Source of the DNA: an uncultured Bacteroidota bacterium
GTDB lineage: Bacteria > Bacteroidota > Bacteroidia > Chitinophagales > Chitinophagaceae
Length of the DNA stretch: 64,000 bases
Direction of reading: 5' to 3'
Assembly (NCBI GenBank): GCA_903831575.1
Contig: CAIKYB010000027.1
Span: forward strand, 1 to 64,000
The position numbers and the translations under genes were made by a program. The notes under the pieces were generated by a model, which worked only from the letters and a program-made list of their open reading frames with translations, made no database searches and was not told the DNA's origin. Shown here piece by piece: positions 2,979-16,976 of the stretch (the first letter of the stretch is position 1; each line of letters opens with the position of its first letter).

Positions 2979-4325
2979 TTACTTGCTAATTTTGCTCAGT
3001 ATCATTTTTTCAACTTCCTCACTATCCCAAATTGATTCAATATCCTTTGTTTGCATCACTTCATCCATGATGGCTTGTTGTTTGTTGCCTCTGCTCAACG
3101 CCTCGCTGTATCTGACTTCCGGGCTAAAAGTAACTAAACTGTATGCAGGTGTCCATTTGTCAGGATGTTTTGCATTGAAATGAGCTTCAATCTTTTTTTG
3201 CAAAAGAAATACAGGGTCTGCAACTTTATCTCTCATTTCCACAAAATTATTTAGGGCTAAGGTTGCAATCGCGTCACCATCAGGTTTTCTTAAAGATTGG
3301 TATTCATTTAAAATGCCATTCCAATTGTGTTGATGTTTATTAATCAATTGATTTAAAACGGAGCAGTCTTCAAAACCACAATTCATGCCTTGTCCGAAGA
3401 AGGGGACTATCGCATGAGCTGCATCACCAATTAATGCAAATTTATCTTCTCTGATCCATGGATAACATTTTACAGTAACCAAAGAGGATGTGGCGTTGTT
3501 GAAGAATTCTTTTTCTAAATGAGGCATCAATGCGGAAGCGTCTGCAAAAACTTTATTAAAAAGAGCTCTTGCTTGTTCTGGTGTTTTCAATGATTGGAAT
3601 GATGGCTCACCTTCAAAAGGAAAGAATAATGTACAAGTAAAGCTGCCATCTATATTTGGCAATGCGATCAACATGTAATTTCCACGAGGCCAAATATGGA
3701 GTGCATTTTTCTCCATTAAAAAAGTGCCATTAGCTCCCGCAGGTATTGTTAATTCTTTATAGCCAAAGTCAATATAATATTGTTCGTATTGAAATCTGTC
3801 GTGTTGTAATTGATGTGTAAGTCTTGCGGCAGAAAATGCACCATCGCTACCAAAAATCAAATCCTGCTTAGCAAGATGAGTGTTATTTTTTTCGGTGTTT
3901 GTAAAATGGATTTCATTTTTTTTCCAATCTATATTTTTACATGTTTCATTAAAGTAAATCTCTACATTGTTTTGCTCTGCGAGATTCATAAGTGTTCTGT
4001 TTAAGTCTCCTCTTGATACAGAATTAATAAATTGACCATCTTTACCATAAGGCTGGTATCCAGAAGTGCCATCTGCATGATGTAATTGACGACCATGCAT
4101 GGGTATAGCAATTTTTCTAATTTCATCCATGATACCCACTTCTTCCAAAGCTTTTATGCCTCTGTCGCTCAAGGCCAAATTGATGGAACGTCCTGCACTC
4201 ATGGATAATTTTCGCATATCGGGGCGACGTTCGTATATTTTTACTTTATAATTTTGTTTGGATAGATAGATGGACAACAGTGAGCCTACAAGTCCGGCGC
4301 CGATGATCGTTATTTCTTTTTGCAT
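2979..4325 (-). CDS. kmo: Kynurenine 3-monooxygenase
   Basis: FAD- and NADPH-dependent aromatic hydroxylase, kynurenine to 3-hydroxykynurenine. The 448 residues are full length. The N-terminal Rossmann motif GAGLVGS (8-14) is followed by an ERR acidic end of strand 2 and the SAGRSINLALSDRG segment typical of KMO. The second FAD motif GDAAHAIVPFFGQGMNCGFED lies near residue 300. It is the last gene of the minus-strand kynurenine set, 159 bases downstream of kynU, and that gap is filled by low-complexity repeat. The start MQKEITIIGAG is unambiguous. Confidence 0.95.
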   Translation of the reverse strand: MQKEITIIGAGLVGSLLSIYLSKQNYKVKIYERRPDMRKLSMSAGRSINLALSDRGIKALEEVGIMDEIRKIAIPMHGRQLHHADGTSGYQPYGKDGQFINSVSRGDLNRTLMNLAEQNNVEIYFNETCKNIDWKKNEIHFTNTEKNNTHLAKQDLIFGSDGAFSAARLTHQLQHDRFQYEQYYIDFGYKELTIPAGANGTFLMEKNALHIWPRGNYMLIALPNIDGSFTCTLFFPFEGEPSFQSLKTPEQARALFNKVFADASALMPHLEKEFFNNATSSLVTVKCYPWIREDKFALIGDAAHAIVPFFGQGMNCGFEDCSVLNQLINKHQHNWNGILNEYQSLRKPDGDAIATLALNNFVEMRDKVADPVFLLQKKIEAHFNAKHPDKWTPAYSLVTFSPEVRYSEALSRGNKQQAIMDEVMQTKDIESIWDSEEVEKMILSKISK

Positions 4326-4330
4326 AAGTA

Positions 4331-4472
4331 AAAAAGTTTCAAAAGTTCAATAAGTTAAAAAGTTTGGTAGGTTTCAAACGTTCAAAAAGTTTAATGAGTT
4401 TAAAAAGTTGAAAGAAGTTAAGTATACTTTGAAAAACATTTTGAACCTCTTGAACATTTTAAACATCTTAAA
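4331..4472. repeat. G/T-arm then C/A-arm low-complexity palindrome between kynU and kmo
   Basis: About 4331-4422 is a chain of degenerate 8-10 base words of the form AAAAGTTTAA or AAGTTCAAT. About 4440-4472 is built of the opposite-strand words (TTGAACCTC, TTGAACATTTTAAACATC). The two arms are imperfectly complementary, so RNA from either strand could fold back. No open frame or recognised element lies inside. It belongs to a class that recurs in other intergenic gaps of this window. Confidence 0.7.
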
Positions 4473-4484
4473 AAAAATACGTTC

Positions 4485-5762
4485 TCACCCCAATAGACTC
4501 TCCTGCATAATCTTCCCAAAATTAAACAAATCTTCAAAGCTATTGTACAAAGGAACTGGAGCTATTCTGATTACATTGGGTTCTCTCCAATCTGCGATGA
4601 CACCATGTTTTATCAATTCGTCAAAAACTTTTTTGCCATCTTTTAGCATCAGTATAGAAACCTGACATCCTCTTTCTGTTTCATTTAATGGAGTGATGAT
4701 TTCAATTAATTTCTCTGATGAATTTTTATTGATTTCATTTAATATGAATAACAAATAACCACTCAACATTTTCCCTTTGGCAACTAAATTATGCATACCA
4801 GCTTCTGCGAAAATATCTAAAGAAGCCTTATGTGCAGACATACTTAATACTGGTGCGTTACTCAATTGCCATCCTTCTGCAGTTGGAATAGGATGAAACT
4901 CCTTGTCCATTTTAAATCGAGTGTCTTTGTCGTGTCCCCACCAACCTGCAAGTCTTGGAAGGGAAGAGTCTGATATATGACGTTGATGTATAAACGCACC
5001 TGCTACTCCGCCGGGCCCACTATTCAAATATTTATACGAACACCAGCAAGCAAAATCTACATTCCAGTCGTGTAATTCTAGATTTACATTGCCTGCAGCA
5101 TGAGCCAGATCAAAACCGCAATAGGCTCCAACTTCATGAGCTGCTTTACAGATGGCTTGCATATCAAATACTTGTCCGCTGTAGTAATTGACTCCGCCAA
5201 AAATCACCAATGCAGTTTCTTCTCCATGTTTTTTAATAGTATCAATGATATCTGATAATTTAATGTAAGAACTGCCTTCCTTGGGTTGAACTTCAATAAT
5301 CGCATCATCAGGATTCAAGCCGTGTAATTTAACTTGAGATTGAAAGGCGTATTGATCAGAAGGGAATGCTTTTGCCTCACAAATGATTTTGAATCTTTTA
5401 CTTGTAGGGCGATAAAAGCTCGTCATTAATAAATGTAAATTGACGGTCAGCTGGTTCATGACTACAATTTCTTCGGGTAATGCACCTACGATAGTACCTA
5501 AAATTTCAGGAAAAATTTCATGATAACTCACCCAGGGGTTTCTTGCATGAAAGTGTCCTTCAACGCCATAATTCGCCCAGTCTTCCAATTCATTCAAAAC
5601 ATAATCCTGAGTTGTTTTTGCTTGAAGGCCTAAAGAATTTCCTGTAAAATAAATAGACTCTTTTCCATTAACCATTGGGATATAAAATTTGTCACGGAAA
5701 TGTTTCAATGAATCCTGTTCATCAACTTGTCTGGCGTATTCGAGTGTATTGGAAAAGGTCAT
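4485..5762 (-). CDS. kynU: Kynureninase
   Basis: PLP-dependent hydrolase of 425 residues cleaving 3-hydroxykynurenine to 3-hydroxyanthranilate and alanine. Kynureninase features are FTGNSLGLQ near residue 40, GVEGHFHARNPW near 70, FGGVNYYSGQ near 190, GFDLAHAAGN near 217 and the PLP-lysine region CWCSYKYLNSGPGG near 240. Length and both ends are normal. It lies upstream of kmo on the same strand and about 90 bases downstream of the RidA-type gene, so a shared transcript is likely although both gaps carry repeats. Confidence 0.95.
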   Translation of the reverse strand: MTFSNTLEYARQVDEQDSLKHFRDKFYIPMVNGKESIYFTGNSLGLQAKTTQDYVLNELEDWANYGVEGHFHARNPWVSYHEIFPEILGTIVGALPEEIVVMNQLTVNLHLLMTSFYRPTSKRFKIICEAKAFPSDQYAFQSQVKLHGLNPDDAIIEVQPKEGSSYIKLSDIIDTIKKHGEETALVIFGGVNYYSGQVFDMQAICKAAHEVGAYCGFDLAHAAGNVNLELHDWNVDFACWCSYKYLNSGPGGVAGAFIHQRHISDSSLPRLAGWWGHDKDTRFKMDKEFHPIPTAEGWQLSNAPVLSMSAHKASLDIFAEAGMHNLVAKGKMLSGYLLFILNEINKNSSEKLIEIITPLNETERGCQVSILMLKDGKKVFDELIKHGVIADWREPNVIRIAPVPLYNSFEDLFNFGKIMQESLLG

Positions 5763-5767
5763 TTTGT

Positions 5768-5820
5768 AAGGTTAAAAGGTTTAATAAGGTTAAAAGGTTC
5801 AATAAGTTCAATAGGTTTGT
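5768..5820. repeat. Tandem nonamer repeat upstream of kynU
   Basis: Degenerate nonamers (AAGGTTAAA, AGGTTTAAT and variants) run in tandem; an 18-base unit occurs twice with one mismatch, followed by AAGTTCAATAGG. The tract sits in the 93-base gap between kynU and the RidA-type gene. It is G/T-rich on the plus strand; a weak A/C partner may be the ACTCATAAACC stretch downstream. Confidence 0.65.
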
Positions 5821-5855: not shown

Positions 5856-6317
5856 TCATTCGATTGTTGCTATCACTTTTAATTCTATAGCAATAGGTGT
5901 GGGCAAACTTTTTACTTCCACAGTAGTCCTGCATGCTTCTACTCCTGAAAAGTAGTCACTGTATATTTTATTGTAAACAGGAAAGTCTGCTTTCATATTT
6001 GTTAAGTAAACGGTTACATCTACTATCTTTTCCCAGCTGCTGCCACTTGCTTCGAGCACGGCTTTCACATTAGCAAAAACAGCATGGCACTCTGCTTCGA
6101 TATCATACTTTACAATATTGCCCGCTTCGTCTATTTCTAAGCCAGGTATTTTGTTGTCAACCGCACTTCGGCTACCAATTCCTGATAGAAACAATAATTC
6201 CCCGACTTTTCTTGCATGAGGGTAGGCGCCGAGGGGAGTGGCGGCTTTTTCGGTTTTGATTATTTCAGTTTTAGAGTTTGTTATTTGTTGTTTGTTATTT
6301 GTTGTTTCCCTGTCCAT
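5856..6317 (-). CDS. RidA-family 2-aminomuconate deaminase
   Basis: RidA/YjgF/UK114-fold protein of 153 residues. The core starting at PLGAYPHARKVG and running through FLSGIGSR, YDIEAECHAVFANVKAVLE and TVYLTNMKADFPVYN to the C-terminal CRTTVEVKSLPTPIAIELK matches the subfamily found with kynurenine and 2-aminophenol genes, which deaminates 2-aminomuconate to 2-oxo-3-hexenedioate. Its place among kmo, kynU and the semialdehyde dehydrogenase supports that substrate. The first 16 or so residues are unusual: they are encoded by a 14-base tandem repeat and by the end of a decayed gene, and no alternative ATG, GTG or TTG lies between the repeat and the conserved core. The N-terminus is therefore probably recent. 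Confidence 0.85.
   Translation of the reverse strand: MDRETTNNKQQITNSKTEIIKTEKAATPLGAYPHARKVGELLFLSGIGSRSAVDNKIPGLEIDEAGNIVKYDIEAECHAVFANVKAVLEASGSSWEKIVDVTVYLTNMKADFPVYNKIYSDYFSGVEACRTTVEVKSLPTPIAIELKVIATIE
6277..6304. repeat. Exact 14-bp tandem duplication inside the deaminase 5' end
   Basis: The unit TTTGTTATTTGTTG occurs twice without mismatch. It codes on the minus strand for the Asn/Gln/Lys-rich N-terminal extension of the RidA-type protein. Because 14 is not a multiple of three, gain or loss of one unit would shift the frame and break the gene. Confidence 0.8.
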
Positions 6318-6567
6318 GTATTTTAATCCTTTATGTTTTGAGTAGTTCAGATAGTTAATAAATGCAGCGATTTTATTGTTTAATTTTTCTGCATCATTCA
6401 GTAAGTCACTATATTGTTCATTACAGATTCTGATGATCTTGATATCTGATCTTTTAATCCGAAATCTCTTTTTAATTCAGAATTTCTAGACAATTAATAA
6501 CCTTTTTATTTATTTGTCTCGCAATTATCCAAATCTCAAGATCTTCAAATCTTCTGATAGTTGCCAT
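6318..6567 (-). pseudogene. Decayed four-helix-bundle (S23/IVP family) gene
   Basis: Three minus-strand pieces match the four-helix-bundle protein family related to the 23S rRNA intervening-sequence protein. Piece 1 starts with ATG at 6567 and reads MATIRRFEDLEIWIIARQ before a stop near 6472. Piece 2, in another frame (about 6476-6397), reads DFGLKDQISRSSESVMNNI. Piece 3 (about 6419-6315) reads LNNKIAAFINYL and KHKGLKYM. The middle of the family (the AEGF...KGS helices) is deleted, leaving about 250 bases of an expected 360. The recognition rests on remembered family consensus, not a search. The remainder of the gap up to 6672 holds no gene; it ends in an A/C-rich tract near 6655-6674. Confidence 0.75.
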
Positions 6568-6672
6568 AGTATTTTATTTGTACGATTAAAAAATGTACAT
6601 TAAAATATTCTTATTAAATTCTATGGTAAAGAAAAAGAACTAAATAAAATTAAGTAAACCGCAAACCACAAA

Positions 6673-8127
6673 CTAATATTGAATACACACATTCTTCGCC
6701 TCCGTAAAAAACCGCATCGCTTCCAAACCACCTTCTCTACCAACGCCACTGTTTTTAACGCCTCCAAATGGGGTTCTTAAATCTCTTTGTAACCAGCAAT
6801 TAATCCACACAATACCACTTTCTATTTTTGAAGCCACGTGATTCGCCTTAGCAATATCCTGTGTCCATATTGTACAGGAAAGACCATAATCAGTTGCATT
6901 GGCTAATGCTAAAGCTTCTTCAACAGAATGAAAAGGTTGTATGGTAACTACTGGTCCAAAAATTTCTTCTTTATTTGTTTTGCAATTCGGACCAAGATTT
7001 TCAATAATAGTAGGCTCTATAAAATAACCATTCTCACATCTTCCTGAGGGGCTTACTGATTTTCCTCCGCATAAAATAGTCCCACCTTCTTTTTTGGCTA
7101 TATCTATACAGTTGATTATTTTTTCAAAATGCACTTTACTTACTATTGCACCTTGTTTGGATGAATCAACAAGAGGGTCGCCAATTGTCAATTTTTTAGT
7201 CCTTTCAACAAATGTCATTTTGAATCGCTCATATATTGAGGCTTCAATTAAAATCCTGCTGCAGCATAAGCAAATTTGTCCTTGATTTCCAAAAGAGGAT
7301 CTTATTGTATTATAGATCATTTTATCCCAATCGCAATCAGCAAAAATAATATTCGGATTTTTACCACCAAGTTCGAGTGATAATTTTTTGAACATTGGTG
7401 CTGCTATTGAAGCTATTCTTTCGCCGGCTTTTGTGCTACCGGTAAATGAAATTGCTTTTATCGAAGGGTGTTTAACAATAGCTTCTCCGCATGAAGGGCC
7501 ATCGCCATGAAGGATATTTAAAACGCCATCAGGTAAACCTGCTTCTTTACAAATTTTAGCTAGCAGGTACGCGCTAACGGGAGTTGTCTCGGATGGTTTT
7601 GCAATCACACAATTTCCGGCAGCAAGTGCAGGTGCGATTTTCCAGGTGAATAAATACAAAGGCAAATTCCATGGAGAGATACATCCTACTATTCCAACGG
7701 GTTGTCGTAGGGTATAATTAATGCCGCCTTCCATAGCATGACTTTCTGAAGAAAATTGCATTGCGGCTGTAGCAAAAAATCTAAAATTGGATGATGCTCT
7801 TGGAATATCTACTTCTTTGCTCAACCAAAGAGGTTTGCCGTTGTCATTCGTTTCTGCCAGTGCTAAGGCCTCTAAATTTTCATCGATTAGTTCTGCAATT
7901 TTGTTGAGTATTTTAAATCTGCTTTCTGTTGAAGTTGCTGACCATGATTTTAATGCTGCATTTGCTGCAACTACGGCTTTATCGACATCTTCATCGTTGC
8001 TATTAGGAATCTTGCCATAAACTTTTCCTGTAGCAGGATTTACATTGTCTATAAATGATCCACTTATTGGATGTTGAAATTTTCCATTGATATAGTTCTC
8101 GATTTGAAAAGGAATGTCAAAATGCAT
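6673..8127 (-). CDS. 2-aminomuconate (or 2-hydroxymuconate) semialdehyde dehydrogenase
   Basis: NAD-dependent aldehyde dehydrogenase of 484 residues. Standard motifs are ISPWNLP (about 150), AKPSETTP, SFTGSTKAGE, the general base in LELGGKNPN (about 252) and the nucleophile in NQGQICLCCSR (about 282); the ICLC form of the active site resembles ALDH8A1 and muconic-semialdehyde dehydrogenases. In this cluster it would oxidise 2-aminomuconate semialdehyde, the product of ACMS decarboxylase, to 2-aminomuconate. It is divergent from the dioxygenase gene across 115 bases. TACCTTT-like sequences on both strands of that gap are possible -7 boxes. Confidence 0.88.
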   Translation of the reverse strand: MHFDIPFQIENYINGKFQHPISGSFIDNVNPATGKVYGKIPNSNDEDVDKAVVAANAALKSWSATSTESRFKILNKIAELIDENLEALALAETNDNGKPLWLSKEVDIPRASSNFRFFATAAMQFSSESHAMEGGINYTLRQPVGIVGCISPWNLPLYLFTWKIAPALAAGNCVIAKPSETTPVSAYLLAKICKEAGLPDGVLNILHGDGPSCGEAIVKHPSIKAISFTGSTKAGERIASIAAPMFKKLSLELGGKNPNIIFADCDWDKMIYNTIRSSFGNQGQICLCCSRILIEASIYERFKMTFVERTKKLTIGDPLVDSSKQGAIVSKVHFEKIINCIDIAKKEGGTILCGGKSVSPSGRCENGYFIEPTIIENLGPNCKTNKEEIFGPVVTIQPFHSVEEALALANATDYGLSCTIWTQDIAKANHVASKIESGIVWINCWLQRDLRTPFGGVKNSGVGREGGLEAMRFFTEAKNVCIQY

Positions 8128-8242: not shown

Positions 8243-8767
8243 ATGGCAATTGCAGCTCCTTTTAATTTAAAAAAATGGATTGACGAACATAGAGATTTAC
8301 TAAAGCCGCCTGTAGGGAATCAATGTATTTATAAAGATGCTGAGAATTTTATTGTTATGGTTGTAGGAGGACCAAATGCCCGTAAAGATTACCATTTTAA
8401 TGAAAGTGAAGAATTGTATTATCAGGTGGAAGGGGATATTGTCCTTAAAATAATTGATAATGGCGTGCCAAGAGATATAGAAATAAATGAAGGCGATATA
8501 TTTTTGTTGCCACCTAAAACACCTCATTCCCCTCAAAGAGGACCCGGAACAGTAGGTTTGGTTGTTGAAAAAGTTAGAGCTACAGAAGACGATGGATTTC
8601 TCTGGTATTGCGAGAATTGCGGAGATAAACTTTATGAAGAATATTTGAATGTTTCAGATATTGTCAAACAACTTCCTCCTGTAATGGCTGGGTTTTATAC
8701 AGATGATCATAAGCGGACATGCAAAAAATGCGGTGCTGTTATGGCGCCTCCGGTTAGGAAGGGGTAA
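8243..8767 (+). CDS. 3-hydroxyanthranilate 3,4-dioxygenase
   Basis: Cupin-fold Fe(II) extradiol dioxygenase of 174 residues, opening 3-hydroxyanthranilate to 2-amino-3-carboxymuconate semialdehyde. The metal ligands are visible at the standard positions His51, Glu57 and His95, with Arg47 and Arg99 for substrate. The C-terminus carries the rubredoxin-like second site of the bacterial type: CENCG and CKKCG. It is the first of two plus-strand kynurenine genes, divergent from the semialdehyde dehydrogenase. Confidence 0.96.
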   Translation: MAIAAPFNLKKWIDEHRDLLKPPVGNQCIYKDAENFIVMVVGGPNARKDYHFNESEELYYQVEGDIVLKIIDNGVPRDIEINEGDIFLLPPKTPHSPQRGPGTVGLVVEKVRATEDDGFLWYCENCGDKLYEEYLNVSDIVKQLPPVMAGFYTDDHKRTCKKCGAVMAPPVRKG

Positions 8768-8769
8768 TT

Positions 8770-8842
8770 TTATCGTTTATAGTTTGTGGTTTGTAGTTTA
8801 TGGTTCATTAGGTAATATAACAAACAACAAACAAAAAACATT
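8770..8842. repeat. G/T-arm then C/A-arm palindrome between dioxygenase and ACMSD genes
   Basis: About 8775-8806 repeats GTTTATAG, GTTTGTGG, GTTTGTAG and GTTTATGG words; about 8819-8840 repeats AACAAAC. The arms are roughly complementary, and the A/C arm ends about ten bases before the ACMSD start codon. Confidence 0.65.
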
Positions 8843-8850
8843 GTATTTTA

Positions 8851-9837
8851 ATGAAAATTGACATTCACACACATATCATGCCTGATAAGATTCCCAATTG
8901 GGTTGCTAAATTTGGCTATGGTGAGTTTATTCATCTGGAGCATCGCAATTGTAAAGCATGTATGATGAAAGGCGATAAGTTATTTAGAGAAGTAGAAGAT
9001 AATTGTTTCAATGATTCAGTCAGAATTGAGGAGATGAATGATACTAACGTTGATGTTCAAGTGCTTTCAACTATTCCTGTTTTATTTAATTATTGGGCGA
9101 AGCCTCAAGATGGGTTAGAAACATCAAGATTTTTTAACGACCATATTTGTGATACTACTATTAAAAATCCAAAACATTTTATTGGTATTGGCACCGTGCC
9201 TCTTCAGGATGTGGATTTAGCTATCAAAGAAATGGAGCGTTGTGTAACAGAACTTAAGATGCCTGGGTTGGAAATAGGCACTAATATTAATGGCAAAAAT
9301 TTAGGCGATGAATCCTTTTTCCCTTTTTATAAAAGAGCAGAAGAGTTAAGCTGTGCCTTATTTGTTCATCCCTGGGAAATGATGGGAGAGCAGCAGATGC
9401 AAAAATATTGGTTGCCTTGGTTGGTGGGAATGCCTGCTGAAACTTCACGAGCTATTTGTTCAATGATTTTTTCGGGTGTATTTGAGCAATTTCCAAAGCT
9501 GAGAGTAGCTTTTGCGCATGGGGGTGGATCATTCCCTTTAACAATTGGCAGAATAGAACATGGGTTTAAGGTTCGCCCAGATTTAGTTGCTATAGACAAC
9601 GCTATAAATCCCAGGGATTATCTTGGTAAATTTTGGATAGATAGCTTAGTGCACGATGAAGCAGCTATGAATTATATAATCAATGTGATGGGAGAAGATA
9701 GTATTTGCTTGGGTAGCGATTACCCCTTTCCGCTAGGAGAGCATTATCCTGGAAGTTTAATTGAATCGATGGAATTGGATAGTGTGATAAAAGAAAAATT
9801 GCTTTTTAAAAATGCTATGAAATGGTTGGGGAGATAG
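8851..9837 (+). CDS. 2-amino-3-carboxymuconate-6-semialdehyde decarboxylase
   Basis: Zinc amidohydrolase-fold decarboxylase (ACMSD) of 328 residues. It diverts the dioxygenase product from quinolinate toward 2-aminomuconate semialdehyde. The HxH ligands are His6 and His8; further ligands are in LFVHPWEM (His173), AHGGGS (His223) and GSDYPFPLGE (Asp290). Length and start (MKIDIHTHIMPDK) are normal. It lies 83 bases downstream of the dioxygenase gene and is probably co-transcribed with it, unless the intervening repeat acts as a stop. Confidence 0.95.
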   Translation: MKIDIHTHIMPDKIPNWVAKFGYGEFIHLEHRNCKACMMKGDKLFREVEDNCFNDSVRIEEMNDTNVDVQVLSTIPVLFNYWAKPQDGLETSRFFNDHICDTTIKNPKHFIGIGTVPLQDVDLAIKEMERCVTELKMPGLEIGTNINGKNLGDESFFPFYKRAEELSCALFVHPWEMMGEQQMQKYWLPWLVGMPAETSRAICSMIFSGVFEQFPKLRVAFAHGGGSFPLTIGRIEHGFKVRPDLVAIDNAINPRDYLGKFWIDSLVHDEAAMNYIINVMGEDSICLGSDYPFPLGEHYPGSLIESMELDSVIKEKLLFKNAMKWLGR

Positions 9838-15408: not shown

Positions 15409-15546
15409 GAAGAGAGGGTTGAAGGTGGTTGAAAGGTGGTTGAAGGTTGTTGAATATTCTTGAAGATCCACAATCAACTAATCAACCAATCAACTAATCA
15501 ACTAATCCTCCAATCAACAATCATCCAATCCTCTATTCAACCAATC
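15409..15546. repeat. G/T-arm then C/A-arm palindrome between ftsK and pth
   Basis: About 15409-15465 repeats AAGGTGGTTGA words in tandem; about 15468-15546 repeats CAATCAACTAAT and AATCAACC words. The second arm is approximately the reverse complement of the first. The A/C arm is open in the pth frame and would add 30 Asn/Gln/Ile/Ser-rich residues if translation began at the ATG at 15460. Confidence 0.75.
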
Positions 15547-15549
15547 ATC

Positions 15550-16131
15550 ATGTCTAAATACTTAATCATAGGTCTCGGTAATATCGGAGAGGAATACTCG
15601 AACACTCGACACAATATTGGATTTGATGTCGTACATGCTTTTGTGATGAAGCATGGAGGGGCTTTTAAAGTGGATAGATTAGCCTACGTCGCTGAAGTCA
15701 AATGGAAGGGAAAGCAGTTCGTTTGCATATGCCCTACAACATTTATGAATCTGAGCGGAAGGGCATTTAAATATTGGCTGGACAAAGAAAACATCTCTTT
15801 AGAAAATACACTTACCATTGTAGATGATCTGGCGCTTCCCTTAGATAAAATAAGGGTTAGAAAAGCTGGTACGCATGCCGGTCATAATGGACTTAAAGAC
15901 ATTCAAAATATTTTAGGGACAGATGAATATCCAAAACTTAGATTTGGGATAGGAAATGTTTTTCCAAAAGGCATGCAAGTGGATTTTGTGCTTGGAAAAT
16001 GGAAAAATGATGAAATTCCAGTGATTAAACTTAAAATTGAAAAATCTATTGAGATTATAGAGAGTTTTGCTGCTATTGGTATTGATAAAACAATGACTGC
16101 CTTTAATAATTTATCCTATAATTTAAAATAG
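15550..16131 (+). CDS. pth: Peptidyl-tRNA hydrolase
   Basis: Releases tRNA from drop-off peptidyl-tRNAs. The 193 residues have the family pattern GLGNIGEEYSNTRHNIGFD with catalytic His, PTTFMNLSGRA with the conserved Asn, VDDLALPLDKIRVRKAG with the catalytic Asp, and HNGLKDI. The start at 15550 (MSKYLIIGLGN) is where conservation begins; an in-frame ATG at 15460 only adds residues encoded by intergenic repeat and is rejected. Confidence 0.94.
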   Translation: MSKYLIIGLGNIGEEYSNTRHNIGFDVVHAFVMKHGGAFKVDRLAYVAEVKWKGKQFVCICPTTFMNLSGRAFKYWLDKENISLENTLTIVDDLALPLDKIRVRKAGTHAGHNGLKDIQNILGTDEYPKLRFGIGNVFPKGMQVDFVLGKWKNDEIPVIKLKIEKSIEIIESFAAIGIDKTMTAFNNLSYNLK

Positions 16132-16214: not shown

Positions 16215-16826
16215 ATGAAGATAATATGCATTGGAAGAAATTATGCTGATCATGCAAAGGAATTGGGCAATGAGATCCCAGAAGAGCCGGTAATATTCAT
16301 GAAGCCCAAAAATGCTTTATTACAACCTCATACACCATTTTATTATCCTGAATTTACTAATGAATTGCATTATGAAGGCGAATTAGTTCTTCGTATTTGC
16401 AAGAATGGGAAATATATTCAAGAACGCCATGCCAATGCTTATTATAATGGAATAACTGTTGGTATTGATTTTACAGCAAGAGATATTCAATTGGAATGTA
16501 AAAAAAAGGGATTGCCATGGGAAAAAGCAAAAGCATTTGATAATTCCGCAGCAGTAGGAAAGTTTACAGATATCGCTCCTGGATTCAATGCTAAAAATGT
16601 AAATTTCTCCTTTTCTAAAAATGGAGAAATCGTTCAAAAAGCGAATTCCTCAGAAGTTATTTTCAGTTTTGATAAATTGATTTCAAATATTTCAAATTAT
16701 TTTTCTCTCAATATTGGAGACCTTATCTTCACCGGAACTCCTGCAGGTGTTGGCGAATGCTTGGTAGGAGACCACTTGGAAGGATTTCTGGAAGGAGTAA
16801 GCGTGCTTAAAGTAGAAGTGAAGTAA
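16215..16826 (+). CDS. Fumarylacetoacetate hydrolase family protein (FAHD1/YcgM-like)
   Basis: Short FAH-fold metalloenzyme of 203 residues. Family motifs are CIGRNYADHAKELG, FMKPKNAL, the metal ligands in HYEGELVL, GIDFTARDIQ, the KAFDNSAAVG segment and FTGTPAGVGE. Relatives are acylpyruvases, oxaloacetate decarboxylases or isomerases of homoprotocatechuate breakdown, and the exact substrate cannot be read from sequence. The fold is shared with 4-oxalocrotonate decarboxylases, which would be the next step after 2-aminomuconate deamination, but the short length and compact motif set favour the general FAHD1-like group. Confidence 0.82.
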   Translation: MKIICIGRNYADHAKELGNEIPEEPVIFMKPKNALLQPHTPFYYPEFTNELHYEGELVLRICKNGKYIQERHANAYYNGITVGIDFTARDIQLECKKKGLPWEKAKAFDNSAAVGKFTDIAPGFNAKNVNFSFSKNGEIVQKANSSEVIFSFDKLISNISNYFSLNIGDLIFTGTPAGVGECLVGDHLEGFLEGVSVLKVEVK

Positions 16827-16829
16827 TCC

Positions 16830-16976
16830 GTTGATTAGTTTATTTGTTGACAAGTTGATTGGCTAGTCAAGCTCTCAACAATGATTCAACAATATTTCAA
16901 CAATCATTCAACCCTCTTCAACAACTTTCAACCCTCTTCAACAACATTCAACCCTCTTCAACAACTTTCAACCCTC
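16830..16976. repeat. G/T-arm then C/A-arm palindrome in a convergent gap
   Basis: About 16830-16866 holds TTGATTAGTTTATTTGTTGA-like words. About 16877-16976 holds TTCAACAA, CAACCCTCTTCAACAA and CAACTTTCAACCCT words in near-perfect tandem, about 30 bases per period in the last part. The A/C arm runs past the stop of the minus-strand SRPBCC gene (16968). Confidence 0.75.

Follow-up and report, generated by a model that had tools for sequence, protein, structure and literature searches.

How does the gene for a conserved enzyme come to take its start codon from the remains of another gene? The question is raised by a RidA-family gene in a stretch of 64,000 nt from an uncultured Bacteroidota bacterium of the Chitinophagaceae (contig CAIKYB010000027.1, positions 1 to 64,000; hereafter the window). 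The gene occupies positions 5856–6317 on the minus strand and encodes 153 aa. A first-pass annotation had placed its sole usable start, the ATG at 6317, within the tail of a four-helix-bundle gene that has decayed, and this placement is borne out by a start-codon scan and by traces of PF05635 and TIGR02436. The gene is very probably the surviving half of a two-domain S23-RidA fusion, the S23 part of which has decayed.

The deaminase gene and the S23 remnants upstream

The RidA reading frame extends from stop to stop over 5856–6476 (206 codons). Ahead of the conserved RidA core, a scan of this frame for ATG, GTG and TTG found a single candidate, the ATG at 6315–6317 (minus strand), which is homologous to the methionine following KG[LQS]KF in the fusion genes of relatives and has AAAGGA 9 nt upstream. 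Translation of the deaminase most likely starts here. The product matches PF01042 (Rid, Ribonuc_L-PSP domain) above the cut-off (E 8.2e-24) and falls short of the cut-off of TIGR00004 (Rid family detoxifying hydrolase; 94.2 bits vs. 106.25). Its best PDB match by sequence is 6izh, a 2-aminomuconate deaminase (E 3.9e-24). The likeness to this enzyme, AmnE/AmnD, comprises the Rid fold with 34% identity in structural alignment, the conserved ACRTTVE arginine region and fitting pathway neighbors, whereas the N-terminal S23 domain or its remnant sets the present proteins, whose activity is predicted, apart.

These neighbors belong to a kynurenine cluster. Profile matches identify an aldehyde dehydrogenase, probably 2-aminomuconate semialdehyde dehydrogenase, as the upstream neighbor (6673–8127, minus strand) and a kynureninase as the downstream one (4485–5762, minus strand; TIGR01814). 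They also identify an FAD-dependent monooxygenase (2979–4325, minus strand), a 3-hydroxyanthranilate 3,4-dioxygenase (8243–8767, plus strand) and an amidohydrolase (8851–9837, plus strand; PF04909); judging from the cluster, the first of these three is probably kynurenine 3-monooxygenase and the last probably ACMS decarboxylase. The pathway around the RidA gene is thus supplied by the dioxygenase, the kynureninase, the aldehyde dehydrogenase and the amidohydrolase, and the RidA product is probably a 2-aminomuconate deaminase and presumably active.

S23 proteins have been known for decades from rRNA intervening sequences, to our knowledge without a function. In the window, the S23 gene survives as three minus-strand pieces. 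The C-terminal remnant (6318–6408) is open and in frame with RidA and has no start of its own; the middle remnant (6409–6495), recognized by PF05635, TIGR02436 and alignment, lies in a second frame and ends at a gap of about 133 nt; the N-terminal remnant (MATIRRFEDLEIW..., 6496–6567), like the first defined by its open frame and by alignment, ends at a 1-nt gap. The spacer between the aldehyde dehydrogenase and S23 (6605–6672, minus strand), where relatives have a 5' repeat arm, retains no significant complementarity. The PF05635 trace (G000:C27:6407-6499) has an E-value of 7.7e-5 with one stop inside, and at 24 bits the fragment misses the family cut-off of 33.8; TIGR02436 (four helix bundle protein) is just reached (E 3.2e-5, 24.1 bits, cut-off 24). 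Alignment with G093, G105, G110 and G111 shows the lesions as two gaps, one of 1 nt near 6495 and one of 133 columns at 6408/6409. All genomes are metagenome-assembled, so that an assembly error could mimic a single lesion, though not easily a 133-nt gap. The deaminase frame has outlived the loss of the part upstream, as the first-pass annotation had recognized.

The deaminase begins with an N-terminal extension of 17 codons, MDRETTNNKQQITNSKT (6267–6317, minus strand), which aligns with the linkers of relatives and represents a remnant of the S23-RidA linker. It includes two exact copies of the 14-nt unit AACAAATAACAAAC at 6276–6289 and 6290–6303 (minus strand). Both copies had been noticed before as encoding the residues next to the start; the duplication is confirmed, with the corrections that it spans 6276–6303 rather than 6277–6304 and that it encodes codons 6–14 plus the final base of codon 5, so that the residues immediately following M1 lie outside it. 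It is the sole exact 14-nt tandem duplication in the window, and 20 second-order Markov sequences of equal length yielded none. Since the window linker aligns with those of relatives, the repeat can be understood as a leftover of the linker, i.e., of the simple-repeat arm on the 3' side of the S23 element. Positions 6276–6298 also form a 23-nt inverted match (91% complementary) with 8817–8839, a second array just before the amidohydrolase gene, which may be a chance product of low complexity.

S23-RidA fusions in related genomes and the age of the start codon

The genus sample comprised 93 genomes of Ferruginibacter-like Chitinophagaceae, the window's own included, and RidA was found in 54 of them at a threshold of E 1e-40 or better. 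In most of these loci the gene stands between the aldehyde dehydrogenase and the kynureninase, as far as the available stretch extends to them. S23, linker and RidA lie in one open frame of 259–315 codons, stop to stop, in 15 of the 54 (G093, G111, G110, G105, G029, G011, G099, G097, G107, G002, G008, G073, G078, G064, and G006, where an N gap truncates RidA at its end). The in-frame S23 start is kept in 14 of the 15, since that of G099 is out of frame. G094 has the fusion layout with one TAG inside S23, and G068 retains only the tail, S23 being otherwise gone. In 36 of the 54, S23 is absent in front of RidA, which there starts close to its core or with a short unrelated leader and lacks the ATG-bearing tail. 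The RidA-linked PF05635 copies among the matches listed score 97.9–115 bits, over the cut-off. An apparent insertion of S23 inside the RidA of G006 was dismissed, as the contig has an N gap at that place.

Further fusions, L203 and L205, were found in named MAGs by a wider contig scan (37 loci, of which 31, L196–L226, were examined), the source records being Chitinophagaceae or Bacteroidetes MAGs; the genus member G080 is identical in sequence to Ferruginibacter sp. HRS2-29 (L215). Outside the genus, no S23 lay next to RidA at E 1e-3, among the matches listed, in any of 20 loci (long open RidA frames in G205, G301, G465, G140, G457, G172, G362 and 13 family members). In a phylum sample of 395 genomes, which included two genus members only, 45 matched the fusion query and, the window's own genome aside, no match extended over both domains. 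A general habit of S23 of fusing to the next gene was considered and rejected: among 93 distinct S23 ORFs, 15 at RidA and 78 elsewhere, a C-terminal tail of more than 45 aa occurs in 0 of the 78, and the fusion is therefore special to RidA. A literature search, which left out bioRxiv and reached few subscription papers, found no published description of an S23-RidA fusion.

The linkers between S23 and RidA are of low complexity and measure 15–44 aa; they differ in sequence and length, and all are in frame. This bears on the proposal that the 14-nt repeat makes the deaminase phase-variable, gain or loss of one unit toggling it off and on. In simple-repeat contingency loci, the repeat lies in the coding region and its unit is not a multiple of three, as is the case for the 14-nt unit in the window. 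The predicted frameshift is real: read by eye, one unit fewer leads to an early stop (MDRETTNNKL*), as does one unit extra (MDRETTNNKQQITNNK*), and the exact duplication itself exceeds chance. However, the array has two units only, which offers little for slippage, and no variation was seen, with one genome per species covered; when up to 3 mismatches are allowed, it occurs at one place in its own genome, less often than the reversed pattern that served as control; RidA is strongly conserved; and the linkers of relatives vary yet keep the frame. With the repeat explained as the arm of an element, a slippage switch at this locus is very improbable.

The fusions also date the start codon. In the host clade of 21 genomes that holds the window, S23 is present in 11, namely nine with open fusions, the window and G094, and each of the 11 has ATG as the codon after the S23 ending KG[LQS]K[FY], and the remnant in G068 has ATG at the same tail codon. 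Conversely, stand-alone S23 proteins ending in GxK[FY] have ATG at the matching codon in 0 of 20 cases, with two FM pairs elsewhere. It follows that the fusion came first and that S23 decayed later, with a ready internal start kept. Among the fusions of the wider scan, the L203 linker has no start codon and that of L205 has an ATG at codon 24. According to the second proposal of the first-pass annotation, the deaminase had recently lost its own 5' end in the window lineage and taken a start from the neighboring pseudogene. The position of the start in the pseudogene tail would fit, as would the disappearance from the window of the ancestral RidA start codon (MxxII... in relatives without S23). 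Yet the join, the tail and the ATG are common to relatives in which the S23 frame is open, and RidA must therefore have lost its own start before S23 decayed. A fresh rescue is accordingly a most unlikely history, and the extension on which both proposals had been built recurs as a fusion linker in 15 of the 54 RidA-bearing genus genomes; in this sense it is shared by orthologues of many species, the finding that the first-pass annotation had named as a refutation.

The favored explanation, decay of one half of a fusion, would run as follows. In an ancestor, an S23 element would have been situated within the kynurenine cluster, after the aldehyde dehydrogenase and before the RidA-type deaminase. 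Its 3' repeat arm, free of stops, would have run in frame into RidA and replaced the RidA start codon. The resulting S23-linker-RidA fusion is kept by many relatives. In the window lineage, the loss of 1 nt and of about 133 nt has cost S23 its single frame, and the deaminase is now most likely read from the pre-existing ATG at the S23 end and so carries 17 old linker residues. At the level of sequence, the fusion in relatives, the single clade of its S23 domains, the lesions and the common ATG are demonstrated.

Selection, structure and exchange of the fused S23 domain

The S23 domain shows dN/dS values of 0.05–0.15 in nine of 13 pairs, synonymous sites being near saturation in several pairs; of the remaining four, one gives 0.54 on hardly any change, one has no amino-acid change and two are saturated. 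By this measure, the S23 of the fusions is under purifying selection. This is relevant to a further explanation, in which S23 is a passenger, the fused frames are accidental read-through of a stop-free arm and RidA is made from internal or reinitiated starts only. In keeping with it, the internal ATG with an AAAGG-like sequence is kept in the host clade, and S23 is broken in 3 of the 11 S23-bearing genomes there (the window, G094 and G099) while RidA is retained. All broken S23s with a recognizable domain are these three, and all fall in the ATG-bearing clade, in numbers too small for a test. Against it stand, besides the selection on S23 and the frame-keeping of the linker indels, the six other genus fusions: their tail codon is ATG in none of the six and no ATG lies between S23 and RidA, two of them having merely a GTG further on, and RidA there must therefore rely on the start of S23 or on one of an unusual kind. 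The passenger explanation is possible, though we think it rather doubtful; we infer instead that the fusion protein is made and useful in the relatives.

A structural model of the G110 fusion (14 sequences, mean pLDDT 75, pTM 0.48) predicts four helices, a linker at 129–167 with pLDDT under 50, and a Rid fold. Searched with Foldseek, it yielded Rid structures in all of the best 50 rows, with 6izh first, and its S23 half was covered in none of these 50. By sequence, the PDB relatives of S23 are 2gsc and 2rld, with five chains each. Passages of one earlier account describe the S23p of Xanthomonas as a homopentamer (PMC4990558), and Rid proteins are typically trimers according to parts of another (PMC4433059), on the basis of which the fusion may cross-link. 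Rid domains in larger polypeptides have a counterpart in fused Rid proteins such as 3x-RidA; in that example, as far as the same parts of the account go, Rid is fused to Rid, whereas the partner here is an S23 four-helix bundle (PMC4433059).

A careful tree of 43 S23 proteins unites the 18 joined to RidA in one clade (support 96/83), the window S23 being too short to be among them, and the clade is also present in a wider quick tree of 93 rows (support 80). Mapped on a host tree of aldehyde dehydrogenase, RidA and kynureninase, the difference between fused-or-remnant and none takes at least nine changes. As fused and unfused states are scattered on this tree, recurrent loss, recurrent gain and interspecies transfer are not fully separable. 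The S23 tree follows the host tree only incompletely, and within single reading frames the synonymous divergence of S23 can be far below that of RidA, as in G011/G107 (0.04 vs. 1.26), G008/G078 (0.01 vs. 0.24) and G029/G011 (0.43 vs. 2.44); other pairs are without such contrast (G105/G093, 1.85 vs. 1.74; G073/G008, 1.52 vs. 1.76). Judged by synonymous divergence, this pattern points to exchange of S23 between species. In G011/G107, a tract of 95–100% identity covers the last part of the aldehyde dehydrogenase and continues through S23, breaking off where the linker begins; as it includes the aldehyde dehydrogenase end, it does not map exactly to the S23 element.

Several individual loci illustrate the turnover at this site. 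In G029 (L007), S23 groups with those of G011, G107 and G099, while RidA and kynureninase group with those of G094 and G105, which is, on these groupings, a recombination inside one gene. In another Chitinophagaceae MAG, the interval from aldehyde dehydrogenase to RidA contains an S23 of a different subfamily (L206:2301-3380), unfused and with its own stop, and the repeat arm ends at an intact RidA ATG; this S23 is a second arrival at the same interval. In G006, the interval from RidA to kynureninase contains an additional S23 gene beside an N gap (L066); in the tree, this S23 branches as the sister of the clade joined to RidA. In G101 (L041), S23 is absent, although present in the nearest relatives G011, G107 and G099, and the spacer has a different repeat of the CACGAAGGCACAAAGG type, as if the element had been replaced.

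Inverted simple-repeat arms and ribosomal intervening sequences

The S23 genes are often framed by inverted simple repeats. Arms were scored at 92 S23 loci by matching the upstream 220 nt with the reverse complement of the downstream 240 nt. The median score was 19.5 for own partners, 9.0 for swapped partners and 9.5 in direct orientation, and the own-partner score reached the 99th percentile of swaps or more at 30 of the 92 loci. A score of at least 15 was obtained at 68 of the 92, comprising 58 of 78 stand-alone and 10 of 14 fused genes, and at one of 48 greedy ORFs of the window that served as controls. The one control is the kynureninase gene (score 19), which lies between inverted TTCAATAGG-type arrays at 5762–5818 and 4408–4480. 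Arms also surround a pair of genes in the window that, by eye, encode a peptidyl-tRNA hydrolase-like protein (15460–16131) and a hydrolase-like protein (16215–16826); they are inverted simple repeats of the GGTTGAAGG and CAATCAACTAATC types at 15413–15518 and 16830–16973, with no S23 between them. Arms are therefore enriched at S23 genes, but other genes can have them too.

The sequence of the arms varies from locus to locus. In G111, the predicted RNA forms one long stem around the S23 ORF (z -5.0, 20 shuffles). No complementary arms were detected in the window, where the score is 9.5, 54% of 2000 shuffles are as good and the fold has a z of -1.61, and arm scoring found none in the fusions of G006 and G064. 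Four stand-alone armed S23 genes (L084, L092, L093 and L096) are each followed, by eye, by the same-looking gene start of the ATGACACTCGAAATTCTAACACCCGAACA type, which reads like another recurrent S23 site.

A similar architecture has been described for intervening sequences (IVSs) of 23S rRNA, in which, according to passages of PMC4990558, terminal inverted repeats enclose an S23p ORF and the stem is cut by RNase III. The IVS of Coxiella burnetii, as depicted in the same passages, shares with the present elements the S23-family ORF in the loop of a terminal-inverted-repeat stem, decaying S23 ORFs and small tandem repeats at the element edge (PMC4990558). In contrast to the ribosomal IVSs, the present elements lie in protein-coding operons, that of the window between aldehyde dehydrogenase and RidA; their arms are locus-specific, degenerate simple repeats; and one of the arms, being translated, links S23 to an enzyme. 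Published descriptions of arm-flanked S23 elements in mRNA were not found in the literature search, which had the coverage given above. As a tentative view, which we put forward as a possibility short of a probable account, the S23 genes studied here could be IVS-like elements of mRNA, mobile or exchanged, that repeatedly settled between the same two kynurenine genes and were domesticated once, when one of them became fused in frame with the deaminase. Such a fusion would perhaps cross-link 5-fold and 3-fold units into a cage or network of enzyme, an assembly that would have been lost in the window lineage.

For annotation, the locus is a warning that the N-terminus of the window RidA gene is not the orthologous start. 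The series from intact fusion to broken S23 with the deaminase kept, and on to the tail only, would illustrate how a gene survives the loss of its start to an invading element by way of an internal codon. Furthermore, a conserved and selected in-frame fusion of S23 with an enzyme whose chemistry is known may offer a handle on the function of S23, through comparison of the fused deaminase with the naturally de-fused one.
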